40,479 nucleotides of DNA from Paracoccaceae bacterium. Its GTDB lineage: Bacteria > Pseudomonadota > Alphaproteobacteria > Rhodobacterales > Rhodobacteraceae. Both the position numbers and the translations under genes were made by a program. The notes beneath the pieces were generated by a model that had not been told where the DNA came from, made no database searches, and worked only from the letters and a program-made list of their open reading frames with translations. Of this stretch, positions 4,930 through 25,352 are shown in pieces (within the stretch, counting starts at the first letter, position 1; each line of letters opens with the position of its first letter). The DNA lies in the NCBI GenBank assembly GCA_902602765.1, contig CACKSH010000016.1, forward strand, positions 1 to 40,479. Reading direction: 5' to 3'.

Positions 4930-5349
4930 TTGAAGAAAATTTTGAATATTTTCAGTGTATTGTTGTTGTTCACATTTAGCCCAGTCGCTGCTGGTGATAT
5001 CACAAAAGGCGAGAAAAAATTCAAAAAGTGTAAATCTTGCCACATGATAGTTGATGATAGTGGAACGACGATTGTCAAGGGTGGTAGGAATGGTCCCAAT
5101 CTCTACGATATTTCAGGAAGAGTGGCCGCTAGCATAGATGGGTTCAAATATGGAGAGAGCCTGGCAACTTTAGGAAAATCAGGTTTCGTTTGGTCAGAGT
5201 CAGAGTTCATTGCTTATGTAGCGGACCCTAAAAAGTATCTAGTTGATAAACTGGATGATAAAAAAGCTAGATCCAAAATGTCATATAAATTAAAGAATGA
5301 CGCTGATACACTTAACATTTGGGCTTATTTGGAGTCCTTGTCTGAATAA
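4930..5349 (+). CDS. cycA: Periplasmic cytochrome c2
   Basis: A 139-aa c-type cytochrome with an N-terminal signal peptide (about 1-21, ending PVAAG), heme site CKSCH (C34, C37, H38) and a likely axial Met in KMSYKL (M117). The size and the GFKYGESL and FVWSESEFIAYVADPKKYL segments are those of Rhodobacter-type cytochrome c2, which carries electrons to the photo-oxidised reaction centre and in respiration. It starts with TTG at 4930; a GGAGAG ribosome-binding site lies about 5 bases before. A 64-bp gap separates it from hemA. It can serve respiration, so it would remain useful without a reaction centre. Confidence 0.92.
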   Translation: MKKILNIFSVLLLFTFSPVAAGDITKGEKKFKKCKSCHMIVDDSGTTIVKGGRNGPNLYDISGRVAASIDGFKYGESLATLGKSGFVWSESEFIAYVADPKKYLVDKLDDKKARSKMSYKLKNDADTLNIWAYLESLSE

Positions 5350-9678: not shown

Positions 9679-9721
9679 TGTAAAATAAAATGGACAGATG
9701 TATTGTCAATTTAATATGACA
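9679..9721. promoter_or_regulatory. Double PpsR/CrtJ operator between crtA and crtI
   Basis: Two perfect TGT-N12-ACA palindromes, at 9679-9696 and 9704-9721, separated by 7 bp. PpsR/CrtJ binds this motif cooperatively at paired sites and represses pigment genes under oxygen or light (known in Rhodobacter). On the minus strand, TTGACA (9704-9709) lies 16 bp before TATTTT (9682-9687), a plausible sigma70-type promoter for crtA-bchIDO that both operators overlap. The arrangement argues that crtI starts downstream, at 9752. Confidence 0.8.
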
Positions 9722-16150: not shown

Positions 16151-17287
16151 ATGGTAGTTGATAGTCCAGAAAGTAGTTTCATCAAAGGTCCTAAGTCACA
16201 TTTTTGGATGAGGGCTAAAAATAATTTATTTAAAAATCAGAAATTTCATAGGATTATCGGAAAGATACCAATTCTTTCGGGCGTCGCAAAGCGTGAAGGT
16301 GAAGATATCTTTGCGCTGATGTCTGGCTTTGTCGCGACACAGGTTCTTTTTGTTTGGATTCAAACAGGAGCGCTGCAGAAAATAGATAGAAAACCACATA
16401 CCTCTGCTATGTTATCTTCATTTTGGGGTTTTGATCTAGAGCGCACCAAAATTTTATGCCGCGCGGGTGAGGCCATTGGGCTTGTTAAAGAAAACAAAGG
16501 TACCTATCGCCTAACGCGCAAGGGGGCAGTAATTATCGGCTTGCCGGGTGTGGCGGATCTCATTGAACATCATAAGATTCTTTACAGAGATCTGCTGAAC
16601 CCATTGGATTTTTTTAGAGGTGTTGAGGAAACGCATCTCTCAAAGTTTTGGCCCTATGTTTTTAGCGGCGGTATGGACCTAAGTCCTAGTGACGTGGAGC
16701 AATACAGTAATTTAATGAGCGAATCTCAATACATGGTCGCAGCTGACACGCTTAATTCAGTCAATATACCACCAAAGTGCCGTTTCTTAGACGTGGGTGG
16801 TGGAAAAGGCACCTTTATAAGTGAGTTAAGTAAAATATATCCGAAGGTAGATGTAGCAGTTTTTGATCTGCCAGGCTCGCATTCCAAGAATGCACAGCAC
16901 ACTTGTATTACTGGGTCTTTCAAGGAAGATGAGCTGCCTGAAGGATATGATATAATATCTCTAGTACGTATACTTTATGACCATCGTGACAATACAATTG
17001 AGAGCTTACTTGCTAAAGTCCATCGTGCGCTAGGTCCAGGTGGTCGTTTGATAGTTTCTGAGCCAATGCTTGGCCCTGATAGACCTTCAATATGGGGTGA
17101 TGTGTATTTTGCTATTTATACACTGGCCATGTGCACAGGGAAAACACGATCTCCCAACCAAGTGTCTGACTTAATTAAAGCTGCAGGATTTGTGGATATT
17201 AAAATTCATAAATCCAGACGTCCTTTTATTACGACAGTAATAGAGGCTCGCAAAAGTAAAATCACAAAAAATGTCAAAAAAAATTGA
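16151..17287 (+). CDS. crtF: Hydroxyneurosporene O-methyltransferase CrtF
   Basis: A 378-aa SAM-dependent methyltransferase making the 1-methoxy group of spheroidene. An N-terminal winged-helix dimerisation part precedes the SAM motif FLDVGGGKGTF (212-222). The later GPGGRLIVSEPML and TGKTRSPNQVSDLIKAAGF segments are typical of the plant-type O-methyltransferase fold. The last codons run into the first PpsR operator of the bchC promoter, so the stop and the regulatory site overlap. Confidence 0.94.
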   Translation: MVVDSPESSFIKGPKSHFWMRAKNNLFKNQKFHRIIGKIPILSGVAKREGEDIFALMSGFVATQVLFVWIQTGALQKIDRKPHTSAMLSSFWGFDLERTKILCRAGEAIGLVKENKGTYRLTRKGAVIIGLPGVADLIEHHKILYRDLLNPLDFFRGVEETHLSKFWPYVFSGGMDLSPSDVEQYSNLMSESQYMVAADTLNSVNIPPKCRFLDVGGGKGTFISELSKIYPKVDVAVFDLPGSHSKNAQHTCITGSFKEDELPEGYDIISLVRILYDHRDNTIESLLAKVHRALGPGGRLIVSEPMLGPDRPSIWGDVYFAIYTLAMCTGKTRSPNQVSDLIKAAGFVDIKIHKSRRPFITTVIEARKSKITKNVKKN

Positions 17288-17315
17288 CACTCCCGATTGT
17301 CAGGTTAAACTGACA
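17272..17315 (+). promoter_or_regulatory. Double PpsR/CrtJ operator and promoter of the bchC-puf superoperon
   Basis: Two perfect TGT-N12-ACA palindromes at 17272-17289 and 17298-17315, exactly 8 bp apart, the classic spacing at Rhodobacter bchC. TTGACA (17284-17289) followed after 16 bp by TAAACT (17306-17311) is a plausible sigma70-type promoter overlapped by both sites. bchC starts 56 bp downstream of the second site. This is the best-formed control site in the window. Confidence 0.85.
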
Positions 17316-19324: not shown

Positions 19325-20905
19325 ATGAGTAAGGAAATAAAATACGATACTGCCTCAGATACAGAAGTAATTCGAGGGCATCCCGAAGAGAAGCTGGGCG
19401 AGGAAATTCAAGCTTCCGAGGGCTCAGTTGAGGCTCAGCTGGGGTGTCACTCGGGTTCTACCATGAAAACAGCTGCAGAAAATAGTCAAAACTCTGAGAT
19501 TTTAGAAAAATATGCAGCTGATTATCCGATGGGCCCACATGATAAGCCTCAATCAATGTGTCCTGCTTTTGGCTCATTGAGAGTTGGTCTGAGAATGAGA
19601 CGAGTGGCGACTGTCTTATCAGGATCGGCCTGTTGTGTTTATGGGCTTACGTTTGTCAGTCATTTCTACGGTGCAAGGCGTTCGGTTGGATACGTTCCTT
19701 TCAATTCGGAAACATTAGTAACTGGAAAACTTTTTGAAGACATAAGAGATGCTGTTCACGAGCTGGCAGATCCAGACCATTACGATGCTGTTGTTGTTAC
19801 AAATCTTTGCGTACCTACTGCGAGTGGGGTTCCTCTAAGGCTCCTTCCAAATGAAATCAACGGTGTTCGCATTATTGGCATTGATGTCCCAGGTTTTGGT
19901 GTTCCAACTCATGCTGAGGCCAAGGATATCTTGGCCGGTGCAATGCTTAATTTTGCGCGACAAGAAGTTGAAGCAGGTCCGGTTCAGGCACCTAAAGGTG
20001 GCAAGAATGATAGACCTAGTTTAGCTATACTTGGCGAAATGTTTCCGGCTGACCCAATGGTAATTGGAGCAATGCTTGACCCCATGGGCCTATCTGCTGG
20101 TCCAGTTTTACCAGCCCGTGAGTGGAGAGAATTATACGCCGCTCTGGGGTGTGATGCAGTTGCTGCGATTCACCCATTTTATACTGCAACCTTAAGAGAA
20201 TTTGATGCGGCAGGGCGTCCGGCGTTCGGAAGTGCCCCAGTAGGATACGATGGAACGGCAAATTGGCTCGCCAATGTTGGAAAAATATTTTCTGTACCTC
20301 AGAAACAAGTAGCCCAAGCTCAAAATATGTTTTTACCAGCGATAAAAGAGGCCCTGGAGAAGACCCCTATTAAGGGACGCATTACGCTGTCGGGTTATGA
20401 AGGCAGTGAGCTATTGGTTGCAAGACTGTTAATAGAAAGTGGTGCCGAGGTGCCATACGTTGGGACTGCTTGTCCAAAAACGGAAATGTCTAAGGTAGAC
20501 GCCGCTTGGCTTAGTCAAAGGGGTGTTGCAGTAAAGTTTAGAGCTTCGCTTGAAGATGATTTATCGGCAGTTGATGCATTTGAACCAGACCTCGCCATAG
20601 GCACAACGCCGGTGGTGCAGCATGCAAAAGAGCAGGGACGCCCTGGCCTATATTTTACTAATCTAGTCTCCGCCCGTCCTCTTATGGGTGTTGCCGGTGC
20701 GGGAAGCTTGGCTGAAGTAATTAATACTGCCATTAGCAATCGTGATCGCATGGCAAATTTGAAGGGTTTCTTTGAAGGTGTAGGTACCGATGATACATCT
20801 GGCGTATGGGAAGCTTCACCTAATCTACGCCCAGATTTCCGTGCGCAACATCAGAAGAAATTAGATAAAGCAGCCAAAGCTGCCAAAGCACAGGAGATGA
20901 TCTGA
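19325..20905 (+). CDS. bchY: Chlorophyllide a reductase subunit Y
   Basis: The 526-aa alpha-type catalytic subunit of the nitrogenase-like chlorophyllide a oxidoreductase. It has a variable acidic N-terminus (~1-65), then [16 protein letters not shown] (C79) and [10 protein letters not shown] (C103/C104), which supply cluster ligands. ATG 19325 is 1 bp after bchX. An earlier in-frame codon within bchX (19304) adds only 7 residues and was rejected. The stop overlaps the bchZ start (TGATG). Confidence 0.97.
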
Positions 20906-22377
20906 TGTTGATCCAGGATCATGATCGTGCTGGAGGGTATTGGGGTGCTGTTTATGCTTTCTGTGCTGTTAAGGGGCTCCAGGTCGTTATAGATGGACCC
21001 GTTGGGTGTGAGAATTTGCCCGTTACTTCCGTTTTGCATTACACCGATGCTTTGCCTCCACATGAATTGCCGATTGTAGTTACTGGCTTGGGCGAGGAAG
21101 AGTTGGGCCGTGATGGAACAGAAGGTGCCATGAGAAGGGCTTGGGAAGCGTTAGATCCAGCACTTCCGGCGGTTGTTGTCACTGGCTCAATTTCTGAAAT
21201 GATTGGTGGTGGCGTAACACCGCAAGGCACTAATATTCAGAGATTTTTGCCAAGAACTATAGATGAAGACCAATGGGAGTCAGCGGATCGAGCTATGACT
21301 TGGATATTCACTGAATTTGGAATGACCAAAGGCAGAATGCCTCCCGAAAAGAAACGCGAGGAGGGTGCCAAGCCCAGGGTAAACATTCTTGGACCGATGT
21401 ATGGAACTTTTAACATGCCAAGTGACCTGCAGGAAATTCGTCGTTTAGTTACGGGGATTGGTGCCGAAGTAAATATGGTTATGCCCTTGGGTGCGCACTT
21501 AGCAGAAATGCGAAGTCTTGTTAATGCTGATGTCAATATTTGCATGTATAGAGAATTTGGTCGTGGTTTGTGCGAAGTTTTAGGTAAGCCATATCTTCAA
21601 GCGCCAATTGGTGTTGAAAGCACCACAAAATTTCTAAGGTCCTTGGGAGAGCTACTTAATTTAGACCCAGAGCCTTTTATTGAGAAAGAAAAGCACTCAA
21701 CTATTAAGCCAGTTTGGGATTTATGGCGCTCTGTAACTCAAGACTTTTTTGGAACTGCAAGTTTTGGGGTTGTGGCTAATGAAACTTATGCTCGAGGATT
21801 AAGAAATTATCTTGAAACTGATTTAGGGTTCCCCTGCGCATTCTCTGTTGCGCGGGTTCGTGGGAAAAAGACAAATAATCAAGAAGTTCGCTCTCTGATT
21901 GAGCAAAAACGGCCTCTTATAATTTTTGGTTCTATTAACGAAAAAATGTATTTGGCTGAACTCAGGAGTGGTCATGGACCTCAACCGGCTTTCATTCCTG
22001 CTTCATTTCCAGGGGCGGCCATAAGGCGAGCAACTGGAACTCCGATGATGGGTTATGCGGGCGCTACCTATGTACTTCAAGAAGTATGCAATGGTCTGTT
22101 TGATGCTTTGTTCCACATACTTCCCTTGGCAAGTGATATGGATGCCGCTGAGGCCACTCCCACCAATTTACGTAAAGACCTTCAATGGGATGCTCAAGCG
22201 CAAGCAGAATTAGATAGAATAGTATCAACTCATCCAATTTTAACTAGAATATCGGCAGCTAAGCGGCTCAGAGATGCAGTCGAAATAGCAACCGTTAATG
22301 CCGGTCACGACCGAGTGACAAAGGAAACTGTGATAGCTCTTGATGGCTCAGGTGCTATAGAAAATAAAGGAACTTAA
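20905..22377 (+). CDS. bchZ: Chlorophyllide a reductase subunit Z
   Basis: The 490-aa beta-type subunit of chlorophyllide a reductase, partner of Bch[23 protein letters not shown] near the N-terminus contains the cluster Cys (C35). The small C-terminal helical domain (from ~[24 protein letters not shown]) is the expected ending. In Rhodobacter, puf promoter elements lie in the bchZ 3' region; I did not recognise them here. pufQ follows 4 bp downstream. Confidence 0.97.
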
Positions 22378-22381
22378 GATA

Positions 22382-22603
22382 ATGACAGATGTTTCTCAAC
22401 CTACTAGGAAATTTAGAGCAAAGCCACGTCGCTCTTTCGAATTCATACTTTATTTTAGTATAATTTTTTTACTCGCAATCCCATTTTCGACTGTAATTTG
22501 GATTGCGGAGGTGTTTCGAAGAAAATCTATATTTGTAGATGGCCCTATCTCTCGCTCAAGAGCTGAGGCTGATCGGATCACGCCCGTTATTTTCTCGGCC
22601 TAA
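22382..22603 (+). CDS. pufQ: PufQ, bacteriochlorophyll/puf regulatory membrane protein
   Basis: A 73-aa protein with a basic N-terminus (KFRAKPRRS), one membrane helix (about 20-42) and a short tail, matching PufQ in size and layout. PufQ promotes bacteriochlorophyll accumulation in Rhodobacter, perhaps as a pigment carrier. The identification relies on the FEFILYFSIIFLLAIPF-type helix and on its position between bchZ and pufB. Confidence 0.88.
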   Translation: MTDVSQPTRKFRAKPRRSFEFILYFSIIFLLAIPFSTVIWIAEVFRRKSIFVDGPISRSRAEADRITPVIFSA

Positions 22604-22660
22604 TGTTACAGGTTGAGGATCAATATCTGCTCTGCCGTATCGGTGGAACAGGACCCCGAA

Positions 22661-22706
22661 AGAGGCAAATGCTTCTAGAGGGACCCGGCCGCAGGGGTGC
22701 TGTGGC
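22661..22706 (+). other. Tandem stem-loops in the pufQ-pufB leader
   Basis: Two hairpins can be drawn in the 132-bp gap before pufB. AGAGGC (22661-22666) pairs with GCTTCT (22671-22676) over loop AAAT, with one G-U. GCCGCAG (22688-22694) pairs with CTGTGGC (22700-22706) over a 5-base loop, with one G-U. In Rhodobacter the pufQ-B intercistronic region is a processing site that sets the 5' end of the stable pufBA message. That function here is inferred. A strong GGAGGA ribosome-binding site follows at about 22724-22729. Confidence 0.5.
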
Positions 22707-22735
22707 GTCAGCAAATTATTTCCGGAGGAAATGTC

Positions 22736-22891
22736 ATGGCTGATAAAAATGGCTTGTCTTTTACAGGTCTAACCGACGAACAGGCGCAGGAGTTGCATTC
22801 TGTTTATTTGAGTGGGATGTGGTTATTCGTAACCGCTTGCATCATAGCTCATATAGCAACTTACATCTACCGCCCCTGGTTCGCATTTTAG
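22736..22891 (+). CDS. pufB: Light-harvesting 1 beta subunit
   Basis: A 51-aa LH1 beta polypeptide: [19 protein letters not shown] cytoplasmic part, one membrane helix, bacteriochlorophyll ligand His39 in [12 protein letters not shown], and the second conserved His21. The ATG at 22736 follows CCGGAGGA and gives the family N-terminus MADK. An in-frame ATG at 22697 would add 13 atypical residues and was rejected. Confidence 0.97.
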
Positions 22892-22905
22892 GGAGGGATT
22901 GATTT

Positions 22906-23067
22906 ATGGCTAAATTCTATAAAATCTGGCTCGTTTTCGATCCACGCCGTGTGTTTGTAGCACAAGGTGTTTTCCTATTCTTGCTAGCAGCAATGATTCA
23001 TCTTGTTCTGCTAAGCACGGAGCATTTCAACTGGTTTGAATCGGCAGCTGCAGCAGCTGGTGGTTAA
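22906..23067 (+). CDS. pufA: Light-harvesting 1 alpha subunit
   Basis: A 53-aa LH1 alpha polypeptide beginning [20 protein letters not shown], with bacteriochlorophyll ligand His32 ([10 protein letters not shown]) and a short C-terminal tail ([14 protein letters not shown]). GGGAGGG precedes the start by about 8 bases. It is 14 bp after pufB. In relatives the next gene is pufL; here only a pufL fragment follows. Confidence 0.97.
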
Positions 23068-23074
23068 ACCATTG

Positions 23075-23095
23075 TTTTGTTCGAGGTGAACAAAA
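23075..23095 (+). other. Stem-loop just after pufA
   Basis: TTTTGTTC (23075-23082) and GAACAAAA (23088-23095) form a perfect 8-bp stem over loop GAGGT, 7 bp after the pufA stop. It is the first of a run of hairpins in the pufA-dxs gap. A-rich sequence rather than a T-run follows, so mRNA stabilisation is likelier than termination. Confidence 0.55.
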
Positions 23096-23102
23096 AATAA
23101 AG

Positions 23103-23135
23103 CCGCGGGCATTTGGCATGTCCATTTGCCCGTGG
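23103..23135 (+). other. pufA 3' intercistronic hairpin
   Basis: A GC-rich stem-loop: CCGCGGGCA (23103-23111) pairs with TGCCCGTGG (23127-23135) with one G-U. After two T-T mismatches, TGG/CCA closes over loop CATGT. Position and strength match the Rhodobacter pufA-pufL hairpins that protect the pufBA message from 3' decay and raise LH1 over RC. That role is inferred. Confidence 0.65.
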
Positions 23136-23153
23136 TGACCAAACAATAACTAT

Positions 23154-23175
23154 CGCTTCTCGGTTTTGAGAAGCG
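23154..23175 (+). terminator. Hairpin with short T-run before the pufL fragment
   Basis: CGCTTCTC (23154-23161) and GAGAAGCG (23168-23175) form a perfect 8-bp stem over loop GGTTTT, followed by TTT. It could be a weak terminator or a decay barrier between pufA and the former pufL. Confidence 0.5.
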
Positions 23176-23199
23176 TTTCGAAGAAAGTAGAGATACGAG

Positions 23200-23295
23200 A
23201 TGGAATTGCTAAGCTTCAAAATGAAGTATCGAGTTCTTTTAGGAAACTCGACGAGCGCCAATCTCGCATGCCAGATTTGGCCTATTGTCCCATAG
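23200..23295 (+). pseudogene. pufL: pufL remnant (N-terminal 12 codons only)
   Basis: A 31-codon frame starts at 23200, 132 bp after pufA, which is a normal pufA-pufL distance. Its first 12 residues, MELLSFKMKYRV, match the near-invariant N-terminus of reaction-centre L (MALLSFERKYRV) at 9 of 12 positions. Similarity then stops: instead of [21 protein letters not shown] the frame reads LLGNSTSANLACQIWPIVP and ends. No other frame nearby resumes PufL, PufM or PufC/PufX that I can recognise. The break falls at about 23235, inside a small hairpin (23230-23250). I read this as the 5' scar of a deletion or relocation of pufLM. A misassembly is the main alternative. Confidence 0.75.
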
Positions 23296-23346
23296 GTCAA
23301 ATTCGGGGTTTCCACACCCCGGTTCCCTTCCTGTTGGCTACAGGAA
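23230..23346 (+). repeat. Array of four stem-loops replacing the pufLM region
   Basis: Four hairpins follow one another. CGAGTT/AACTCG is at 23230-23250. An 11-bp stem ATTTGGCCTAT/ATAGGTCAAAT (one G-U) is at 23275-23302. CGGGGT/ACCCCG is at 23304-23321. TTCCTGT/ACAGGAA is at 23328-23346. A separate terminator follows. No convincing coding sequence was seen here apart from the pufL fragment. The array may be the former 3' end of the puf operon or a structured RNA element; I cannot tell which. Confidence 0.5.
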
Positions 23347-23349
23347 ACT

Positions 23350-23386
23350 GGCGTCGCACTTGCCCAATACAGGTGCGACGCCTTTT
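23350..23386 (+). terminator. Strong rho-independent terminator of the puf operon
   Basis: A perfect 10-bp GC-rich stem, GGCGTCGCAC (23350-23359) with GTGCGACGCC (23373-23382), has a 13-base loop and is followed by TTTT. It ends 22 bp before dxs and is the most probable end of the bchC-puf transcript. Confidence 0.8.
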
Positions 23387-23408
23387 AAAATAGCAAAAGG
23401 ATACTGAA

Positions 23409-25352
23409 ATGTCTTTTCCATTTGAACTGCCGATTTTGGATAATGTTTCCGGTCCGGAAGACCTTCGAAAACTGAGTGATTCTGATTTAGATCAGGTTGC
23501 TAAAGAACTCAGAAATGAAGTTATCGAGGTCGTTTCTCAAACCGGTGGGCATTTAGGTTCATCTCTTGGGGTTGTGGAATTAACGGTTGCTTTACATGCT
23601 ATATTTAAAACACCGCGTGACAAGTTAATCTGGGATGTTGGCCATCAGTGCTATCCACATAAAATTATTACTGGACGCAGAAAACGTATGATGGGCTTAA
23701 GACAGAAAGATGGCGTCAGTGGTTTTACTAAAAGGAGTGAGAGTGAATACGATCCTTTCGGGGCAGCACATAGTTCTACTTCCATTTCTGCCGCTTTGGG
23801 TTTCACAATGGGCCGTGAACTTGGTCAAAACGTGGGTGACTGTGTAGCTGTCATAGGCGATGGGTCAATTTCTGCTGGCATGGCTTATGAAGCAATGAAT
23901 AACGCTGGAGCTGAAAATAAAAGATTATTTGTAATTTTAAATGATAACGAAATGTCGATTGCTCCGCCAGTTGGCGCAATGTCTAGTTACCTGTCAGGAC
24001 TGTACGGTAACTCGGCTTTCCATAAATTAAAAACATTAGCGGAAGAAGTTGAGGTTCATTTGCCATGGGCGATGCGCGACGGAGCGCGAAGAGCCAGACA
24101 AATTGTAACTGGCCTGCATGGACAGGCAACTTTGTTTGAGGAATTAGGTTTTGATTATTTGGGGCCAATCGACGGTCATGATATGCCCCAATTACTATCT
24201 GTTCTTAGAGCTGCTAAAGCCCGAGCAACCGGACCAGTGCTTATTCATGTTTGCACAAAAAAGGGCTGTGGCTATGCTCCTGCTGAAAACTCTAGTGATA
24301 AATATCATGGAGTATCAAAATTTGACATCGCGACTGGACTTCAATCCAAGACACCTGCTAATGCTCCAAGCTATACTGGAATATTTGGGCAAGCCTTAAC
24401 GATTGAGGCGGAGGTAGACCCGAGGGTCGTAGCTGTCACTGCGGCAATGCCATCGGGTACTGGTGTTAATACTATGGCCAAAGTTTTTCCTACGCGCGTT
24501 TTTGACGTTGGCATTGCAGAACAGCATGGTGTAACTTTTGCTGCTGGTATGGCCGCAAGTGGGCTGAAGCCATTTTGCGCCATTTACTCAACATTCTTAC
24601 AAAGGGGCTACGATCAGATAGTCCATGATGTGGCATTACAAAATTTACCTGTGCGCTTTGCCATTGATAGAGCAGGGCTGGTAGGAGCAGATGGAGCGAC
24701 ACATGCAGGAGCATTCGACGTTGCTTATCTTTCAAACTTACCGAACTTTGTGGTTATGGCTGCCTCAGACGAAGCCGAATTAATGCACATGGTTCGAACG
24801 GCTGCCGAATATGACGAAGGACCAATTTCTTTTAGATATCCTAGAGGAAATGGGCTAGGTGTCGAGTTGCCCAAGCGTGGCGAAGTTCTCGAAATAGGAA
24901 AGGGTCGAATTCTCGAACAAGGTTCAGATATCGCAATTCTCTCTTTTGGAGCGCACTTGTCAGTTGTTCAAGAGGCCGCTGCAGCATTAAAATATCAAGG
25001 AATTTCAGTCACGATTGCTGACGCCCGTTTTGCAAAACCGCTAGATACAAAATTAATTAATGACTTGGTAGATAATCATTCCGCTATTTTGACAATTGAG
25101 CAAGGATCAGTTGGGGGTTTTGGTAGTCTGGTTCTTCACCACTTGATGCAGTTAGGTCAGTTGTGTAAGGGAGTGAATATTGACTGTATGTTCTTACCAG
25201 ATCGTTTCATTGATCAAGCAAGCCCTGCTGAAATGTACCGTGATGCCGGCATGAGTGAAGGGGATATAATAGCCCGTAGTATAGAATTACTATCAAAAAG
25301 TTTGAGTAAGTCTGATCAGCAGATAGATAAGATTAATATTCAAAGTTTCTAG
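23409..25352 (+). CDS. dxs: 1-deoxy-D-xylulose-5-phosphate synthase
   Basis: A 647-aa thiamine-dependent transketolase-like enzyme, the entry step of the MEP isoprenoid pathway that supplies carotenoids and the phytyl tail. TPP motif GDGSISAG (150-157) with the downstream [32 protein letters not shown] and [13 protein letters not shown] are typical. AAAAGGAT precedes the ATG. In Rhodobacter, dxs sits directly after pufX, so its presence here marks the expected right border of the puf operon and sharpens the observation that pufLM is missing. Confidence 0.97.

Follow-up and report, generated by a model that had tools for sequence, protein, structure and literature searches.

Probable replacement of a resident PufC-type reaction-centre core by a distant PufX-type unit in a Paracoccaceae bacterium

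In this marine Paracoccaceae bacterium a resident PufC-type pufL-pufM-pufC segment (LMC) was, as we hold with good confidence, deleted from the puf operon after a stand-alone PufX-type reaction-centre (RC) cassette had been gained, and a sister subclade followed a parallel course. The light-converting job in this bacterium is most likely done by the distant PufX-type core. The window, which is the whole stretch of DNA analysed (40 479 nucleotides), is contig C16 of draft genome G000 (1.85 Mb, 81.7% complete, 49 contigs); all window features given below lie on its + strand.

Deletion and relic in the puf operon

bchZ (20905–22377) is followed by pufQ (22382–22603; PF05398, 61.5 bits, cutoff 22.1), by pufB for LH1 beta (22736–22891; 98% identity to G012, 100% to G003) and by pufA for LH1 alpha (22906–23067; 100% identical to pufA of the PufC-type genome G007). 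The next gene, dxs (23409–25352), starts at 23409, so that a spacer of 341 bp separates it from the end of pufA at 23067; bchZ and dxs are ORFs named by eye. An earlier note on this DNA had described pufQ-B-A as intact and dxs as following after 341 bp, and the window sequence and ORF coordinates bear this out. Its statement that L and M are missing throughout the window also holds: no pufL or pufM was found among the window ORFs of at least 100 aa. The pufA-pufL spacer retains a hairpin (23103–23135), present in the sequence as the inverted repeat CCGCGGGCA/TGCCCGTGG.

The frame opening at 23200 reads MELLSFKMKYRVLLGNSTSANLACQIWPIVP and stops at 23295. The pufL relic described there before is real and lies in this frame as claimed, but its proposed length of 12 codons was too short: the decayed pufL start covers 55 bp (23200–23254), with about 18 codons that keep the register of G012 pufL, as seen in an alignment with loci L061 and L050. 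From 23044 to 23234 the window matches the pufA-pufL junction of G012 (76%, 146/192 columns, E 1e-35) and, from 23255, the G012 sequence 3′ of pufC (94%, 173/185, E 4e-79). At the breakpoints G012 carries GCGGTAATCT on the left (codons 19–22 of its pufL) and GCGCCAATCT on the right, an imperfect direct repeat agreeing at 8 of 10 positions; a single copy, GCGCCAATCT, is left in the window as the deletion junction (23255–23264). Missing relative to G012 are pufL-pufM-pufC, about 2.94 kb. Comparison with sister genomes, as proposed earlier, found pufQ-B-A-L-M-C-dxs kept in G012 (PufC of 368 aa) and the same operon in G007, and a scar junction identical in position to that of G000 in G003, a separate assembly. 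Read from these alignments, the gap is real and the resident pufL-pufM-pufC is cut out of the puf operon.

The sequence 3′ of the scar (23255–23398) is predicted to form a structured puf 3′-UTR RNA with terminator, PcrX-like by position. It folds as consecutive hairpins plus the terminator with an MFE z of −6.2 (0/200 shuffles as stable), and matches to it were obtained in 54 of the 74 other puf loci, in 52 cases between pufM and dxs and in two in stretches without dxs or pufM. Compensatory changes occur in 20 of 30 consensus pairs among 14 sequences, which were hand-chosen, include three near-identical ones and also served for the structure prediction. Against Rfam, 22600–23500 gave only two hits, both weak: 18.5 bits where the gathering score is 428, and 17.4 bits where it is 40. 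G000 and G003 still have the element despite the LMC deletion; group II, the second of the two groups of sister genomes treated below, has lost it. The copies of the window and G012 match LMX-type loci (G432, 83% over 89 bp; L094, 95% over 56 bp) better than other LMC loci (G035, 77% over 57 bp; G030, G016 and G007 matched over short stretches or not at all; none listed for G232).

The earlier reading of all other cluster genes as open, RC-H included, fails for RC-H: only a C-terminal puhA fragment, truncated by the contig start, is present (3–281), a 93-aa open frame with 76–98% identity to the puhA region in ten genomes of the genus and 89–98% to that of the group I sisters; a profile search of G000 for the PRCH domain gave no match. 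Nor is the bch/crt set full, as had been supposed, the bchFNBHLM half being absent, by eye, from the window ORF list. The window further contains the resident puhC (984–1454; TIGR03054, 137.2 bits, cutoff 55) and an ORF, named by eye, for a soluble c-type cytochrome that may serve as RC donor (4930–5349).

Content, lineage and control of the relocated unit

The genome-wide search for pufL and pufM that the earlier note had suggested found both, intact and mid-contig, on the 86 kb contig C8 of G000 (58375–60139); a PF00124 search of the whole G000 genome matched on C8 only. The unit reads pseudoazurin (reverse strand), second puhC, pufL, pufM, pufX, and 3′ of pufX come a LysR gene and then the molybdopterin and iron-sulphur subunits of a formate-dehydrogenase-like enzyme. 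pufL and pufM both score above equivalog cutoffs, as do PuhC (TIGR03054) and pseudoazurin (TIGR02375) above theirs; pufX, directly after pufM, passes narrowly (PF11511, 29.0 bits, cutoff 25) and gave no match in an NCBIfam search. L and M contain His-containing motifs, which we take to be the ligand motifs. The unit thus holds RC and puh genes but no bch, crt or LH1 gene, and its LMX lies away from the pufBA-dxs interval, unlike that of an ordinary PufX-type operon. PufC (PF02276) had no match in G000, a genome 82% complete.

Integrase, transposase or other mobile-element domains were not found in ten flanking or nearby proteins searched against Pfam, one of which belonged to no family. The GC content of the cassette (0.411) equals that of the host (0.404), so that composition gives no sign of recent transfer. 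The best PufM in a plasmid search reached only 77.6%, and there is thus no close relative of the unit among the 11 plasmid records; peptide patterns gave no match in viral contigs.

Units of this kind (type A) are present in the group I carriers G000, G003, G008, G010 and G013; a second kind (type B) is present in the group II carriers G001, G004, G014 and G011. The type A island also has the LysR and formate-dehydrogenase-like genes (L003 15693–19001; G000:C8 60692–66124), and its fdsB is 72–76% identical to the copies in ten island-free genomes or contigs, including G012 and G006; this low identity suggests a second replaced operon. A pair of a doxX-like and a 131-aa gene lies near the type A island (G000:C8 71796–72800) and borders pufX in type B. 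About 7 kb past the type B unit is a 512-aa ORF without a Pfam family (L046 18379–19917), and the relocated pufL of G004 (L051 7162–8008) is split by a frameshift, which may be a sequencing error or mark a pseudogene.

Compared with the copies in the operons of G007 and G012, relocated PufL shows 75–76% and relocated PufM 72–74% identity. Two trees, of 88 and 41 rows, place the relocated LM in the PufX-type clade (support 99 and 100/99, respectively) and the LM of G007 and G012 with the PufC-type sequences. The 88-row tree was drawn from 97 loci, leaving out the duplicates L065–L069 and those with fragmentary L or M (L021, L080, L085, L087); the 41-row tree also leaves out contig C76 of G011. 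Since the C8 genes are PufX-type while the operon-keeping sisters have PufC-type genes, they are not the moved originals.

Type A and type B LM form one clade (100/99). The relocated units together with G432, which has LMX at the ordinary place, also form one clade (100/100); p-AU was 0.113 for the relocated units as a clade without G432. The LM path length between A and B is about 0.18–0.20, against about 0.10 between the LMC copies of the two groups, which favours two gains, although rates may differ. The genus adjoins G432 in a tree of bchZ and dxs (98/95), whereas pufA is closest to LMC genomes. The bchZ-dxs tree and the LMX-like 3′ UTR, set against the LMC-like pufA, indicate that the puf segment recombined against its backbone; recombination may earlier have brought LMC itself into this lineage.

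Paired palindromes of the PpsR/CrtJ type (TGTN12ACA) stand before pufL (before pufQ in G026, a genome from outside the genus) in 11 of 11 relocated units, or 12 of 12 if G011:C76 is included, 21–26 bp from start to start and 113–281 bp before pufL. The control covered the sequence before pufL in the 68 of 74 ordinary loci with 300 bp upstream of that gene, six being too short; a pair occurred in 0/68 and at least one site in 14/68. Single-letter shuffles of the G000 stretch yielded a pair in 7 of 20,000 cases (0.035%). The same paired design precedes pigment genes in the window, between crtA-like and crtI-like genes (9679–9721; palindromes at 9679 and 9704) and before the bchC-X-Y-Z-puf stretch (17272–17315; at 17272 and 17298), the genes being named by eye. 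The second palindrome of type A units has TTGACA at its end and TATCCT 16 bp further on, a sigma-70-like promoter by eye. In Rhodobacter capsulatus, according to the available text, paired CrtJ palindromes span the bchC promoter (PMC5362033). Judged by this layout, the relocated RC core probably has its own switch.

Sister genomes and the course of replacement

The genus sample comprised 16 genomes. PF00124 matched in 11, with LMC in two (G007, G012) and relocated units in nine; PF02276 matched in G007 and G012 only and not in the other 14. A second junction is common to five assemblies of the other subclade (G001, G002, G004, G011, G015); in G001, four to five pufL codons run directly into sequence that begins 34 bp upstream of dxs. 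The five sequences align across this junction (MAFFT), and both sides of the join were BLAST-matched to G007 in G001 and G002 only. As the two junctions differ, LMC was lost from the operon at least twice. Scar and unit occur together in G000, G003, G001, G004 and G011 (unit on C44). Four genomes have a unit but no puf-locus match (G008, G010, G013, G014) and two a scar but no LM match (G002, G015); these six drafts are 53–77% complete, and absences in them are weak evidence. A candidate case of two relocated RCs in G011 was dropped: contig C76 (L058) adds another rhomboid gene, of the group I type, and another fdsB to this genome, and over 4.5 kb it shares 95.8% identity with G013. By these sequence features it is probably a mis-binned group I contig.

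The insertion sites are seen without the unit in sister genomes. The type A island of G000, about 10 kb long, lies between a rhomboid gene and a gene for a 448-aa periplasmic-binding protein, which are 0.4 kb apart in G006 and G012. The type B unit of G001 lies between a dadA-like (FAD-oxidoreductase) gene and tig (trigger factor), which in G007 are 1.3 kb apart with no cassette-gene match between them. G006 and G012 together form the sister group of the five type A genomes (96/94); only G012 is shown as a keeper in that pair, G006 having no LM match and a puf contig that stops within pufA. G007 stands outside the other five group II rows (87/93). One flank-gene tree, in which G015 has 33% of the columns, puts G015 outside G007 (90/88), in conflict with the shared junction and the PGC tree. 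The rpoB tree was weakly supported, and reliance was placed on flank-gene and PGC-gene trees instead.

Pseudoazurin (at least 68%) accompanies relocated LM in 9/9 genomes and occurs also in G009, at a contig edge; it was not found in the LMC-keepers G007 and G012, and G006 has a 48% relative. G007 and those group I genomes that were read have the resident puhC, but it was not found between puhB and acsF in 5/5 LMC-less group II genomes (L197 11309–13460; L158, L159, L161, L164, L167), where the cassette puhC therefore probably replaced the resident copy.

Beyond the genus, a PuhC profile built from the cassette copies and G026 was run on 394 family genomes and matched in 163. The 30 best-scoring loci were read, and 27 of them had the order puhB-puhC-acsF, the exceptions being G000, G026 and G232; more units may exist among the other matches. 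G026 has puhB-puhC-pufQ-pufL-pufM-pufX together (L194 11399–15163), an unusual split cluster, with no pufBA or dxs match in the 20 kb read. G232 (98% complete) has both kinds of RC: its cluster contains pufQBALMC-dxs, and apart from this there is a puhC-pufLMX unit, whose contig shows a GC content of 0.585 and 0.628 in two stretches, inside the range of seven other stretches (0.574–0.640). In G232 and G000 the RC units adjoin, by eye, similar branched-chain-type ABC transporter genes at opposite ends (L281 13213–16831; G000:C8 66511–71600).

Among the alternatives, the one that survives best is a single old acquisition, by which the genus ancestor had both RCs, its descendants lost one or the other, and the cassette changed site by rearrangement. 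Types A and B being one clade (100/99) would agree with it, as would the two RCs coexisting in G232, the unit of which adjoins ABC genes like those bordering the type A island, and the doxX/131-aa pair found near both types. Sites A and B differ, however, the LMC-keepers showed no cassette gene at either site and have no second LM set by PF00124, and the A-B path in LM exceeds the LMC path between the groups; we regard a single acquisition as the less likely course. Far less probable is a simple move of the original pufLM to C8. The earlier note had rightly allowed for pufLM elsewhere in the genome, and they are intact on C8; as moved originals they do not qualify, being PufX-type by the trees and sharing 72–76% identity with the copies in the G007 and G012 operons, with PufC not found. 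An artefact of assembly or binning, including the assembly collapse once considered for this locus, might be suspected from the state of the G000 draft and from C76 of G011, but is scarcely credible given scar and unit together in five genomes, the same junction in the separate G003 assembly and the second junction in five assemblies. Loss of the RC with an antenna left behind, suggested by the lack of L and M in the window alone, is equally far-fetched and is contradicted by the intact pufL, pufM (PF00124) and pufX with their putative ligand motifs on C8.

Deletion of the resident LMC following the gain of a PufX-type cassette remains the preferred course. A cassette with pseudoazurin (a blue-copper protein), a second puhC, pufL, pufM and pufX would have been gained elsewhere on the chromosome, presumably by horizontal transfer, and the resident LMC would have been deleted later, through the short repeat, leaving the puf 3′-UTR RNA and terminator. 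Given the two PpsR/CrtJ-type operators before pufL, L, M and X would have a promoter to themselves, regulated by light and oxygen; their expression would keep pace with that of the pigment genes, off the pufQBA transcript. The old LH1 polypeptides from the puf operon and the old RC-H from puh would serve the new core; cytochrome c2 and/or pseudoazurin may have taken over electron donation from the lost PufC, and the LH1:RC balance would have to be set otherwise than by decay of one mRNA. With a related cassette at another site, the sister subclade would have taken the same course.

More tentatively, and with slightly less than even confidence, we propose a plug-in RC cassette (blue-copper donor, PuhC, L, M, PufX and paired PpsR operators) that moves around among marine Rhodobacteraceae and turns PufC-type phototrophs into PufX-type ones. 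It would be gained at unrelated sites and coexist with the resident RC for a time, after which the resident LMC, and in one subclade also puhC, would be deleted; the old LH1, RC-H and 3′-UTR RNA would remain and now work in trans on the new core.

Comparison with known systems

Here a core membrane complex appears to have been exchanged alone, with the relic, the compact unit, unit-free sister sites and a dual-RC genome all visible. In Rhodobacter the LH1:RC ratio is described, in the text available, as set by segmental decay of one puf mRNA (PMC10253847). Having LMX off the puf mRNA breaks this coupling in cis, and the strains would therefore be a natural test of other means of setting the ratio, as well as of whether pseudoazurin can replace PufC as donor. 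PcrX of Rhodobacter sphaeroides is made from the puf 3′ UTR and, by the available account, lowers pufLMX mRNA, probably through pufX (PMC9438474). The 3′-UTR element described here sits where PcrX is made, a likeness by position, but pufX is no longer on the same transcript; if the element is a PcrX homologue, its action would now be in trans.

Ten aerobic phototrophs show the puf orders pufQBALMC, pufQBALM, pufBALM and pufLMCBA in the accessible part of one report (PMC3176799), and a family study, as far as its available text goes, found photosynthesis clusters to act as whole units that are not partly transferred (PMC6739100). In the literature searched, which was available in part, no description was found of a relocated LMX unit together with a deleted resident RC; Yutin & Beja 2005, Yutin 2007 and Koblizek 2015 could hold earlier sightings. 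RC-only cassettes as such are already known from Citromicrobium sp. JL354, and full replacement with a scar was not found within that same literature.

In Citromicrobium sp. JL354, by the available text, an incomplete PGC, pufLMC-puhCBA, lies in an ICE beside a full cluster (PMC3338782). The likeness is in RC genes and puhC standing, without bch, crt and LH1 genes, apart from the main cluster. In JL354, as there described, both RCs coexist, and the unit is of the PufC type and carried by an ICE. The C8 unit is of the PufX type, its tested neighbours yielded no ICE gene, and the resident RC is deleted with a scar. Brinkmann et al. 2018 infer, in the portion available, a single switch from PufC to PufX at the same operon place, and whole-cluster transfer (PMC6052148). 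There, as here, a PufC-type was replaced by a PufX-type, but in the present genomes the RC core alone appears to have been exchanged, in two subclades. With the canonical pufQBALMX-dxs of Rhodobacteraceae the unit shares the LM lineage and PufX; it differs in not standing between pufBA and dxs and in having its own puhC, pseudoazurin and paired operators.
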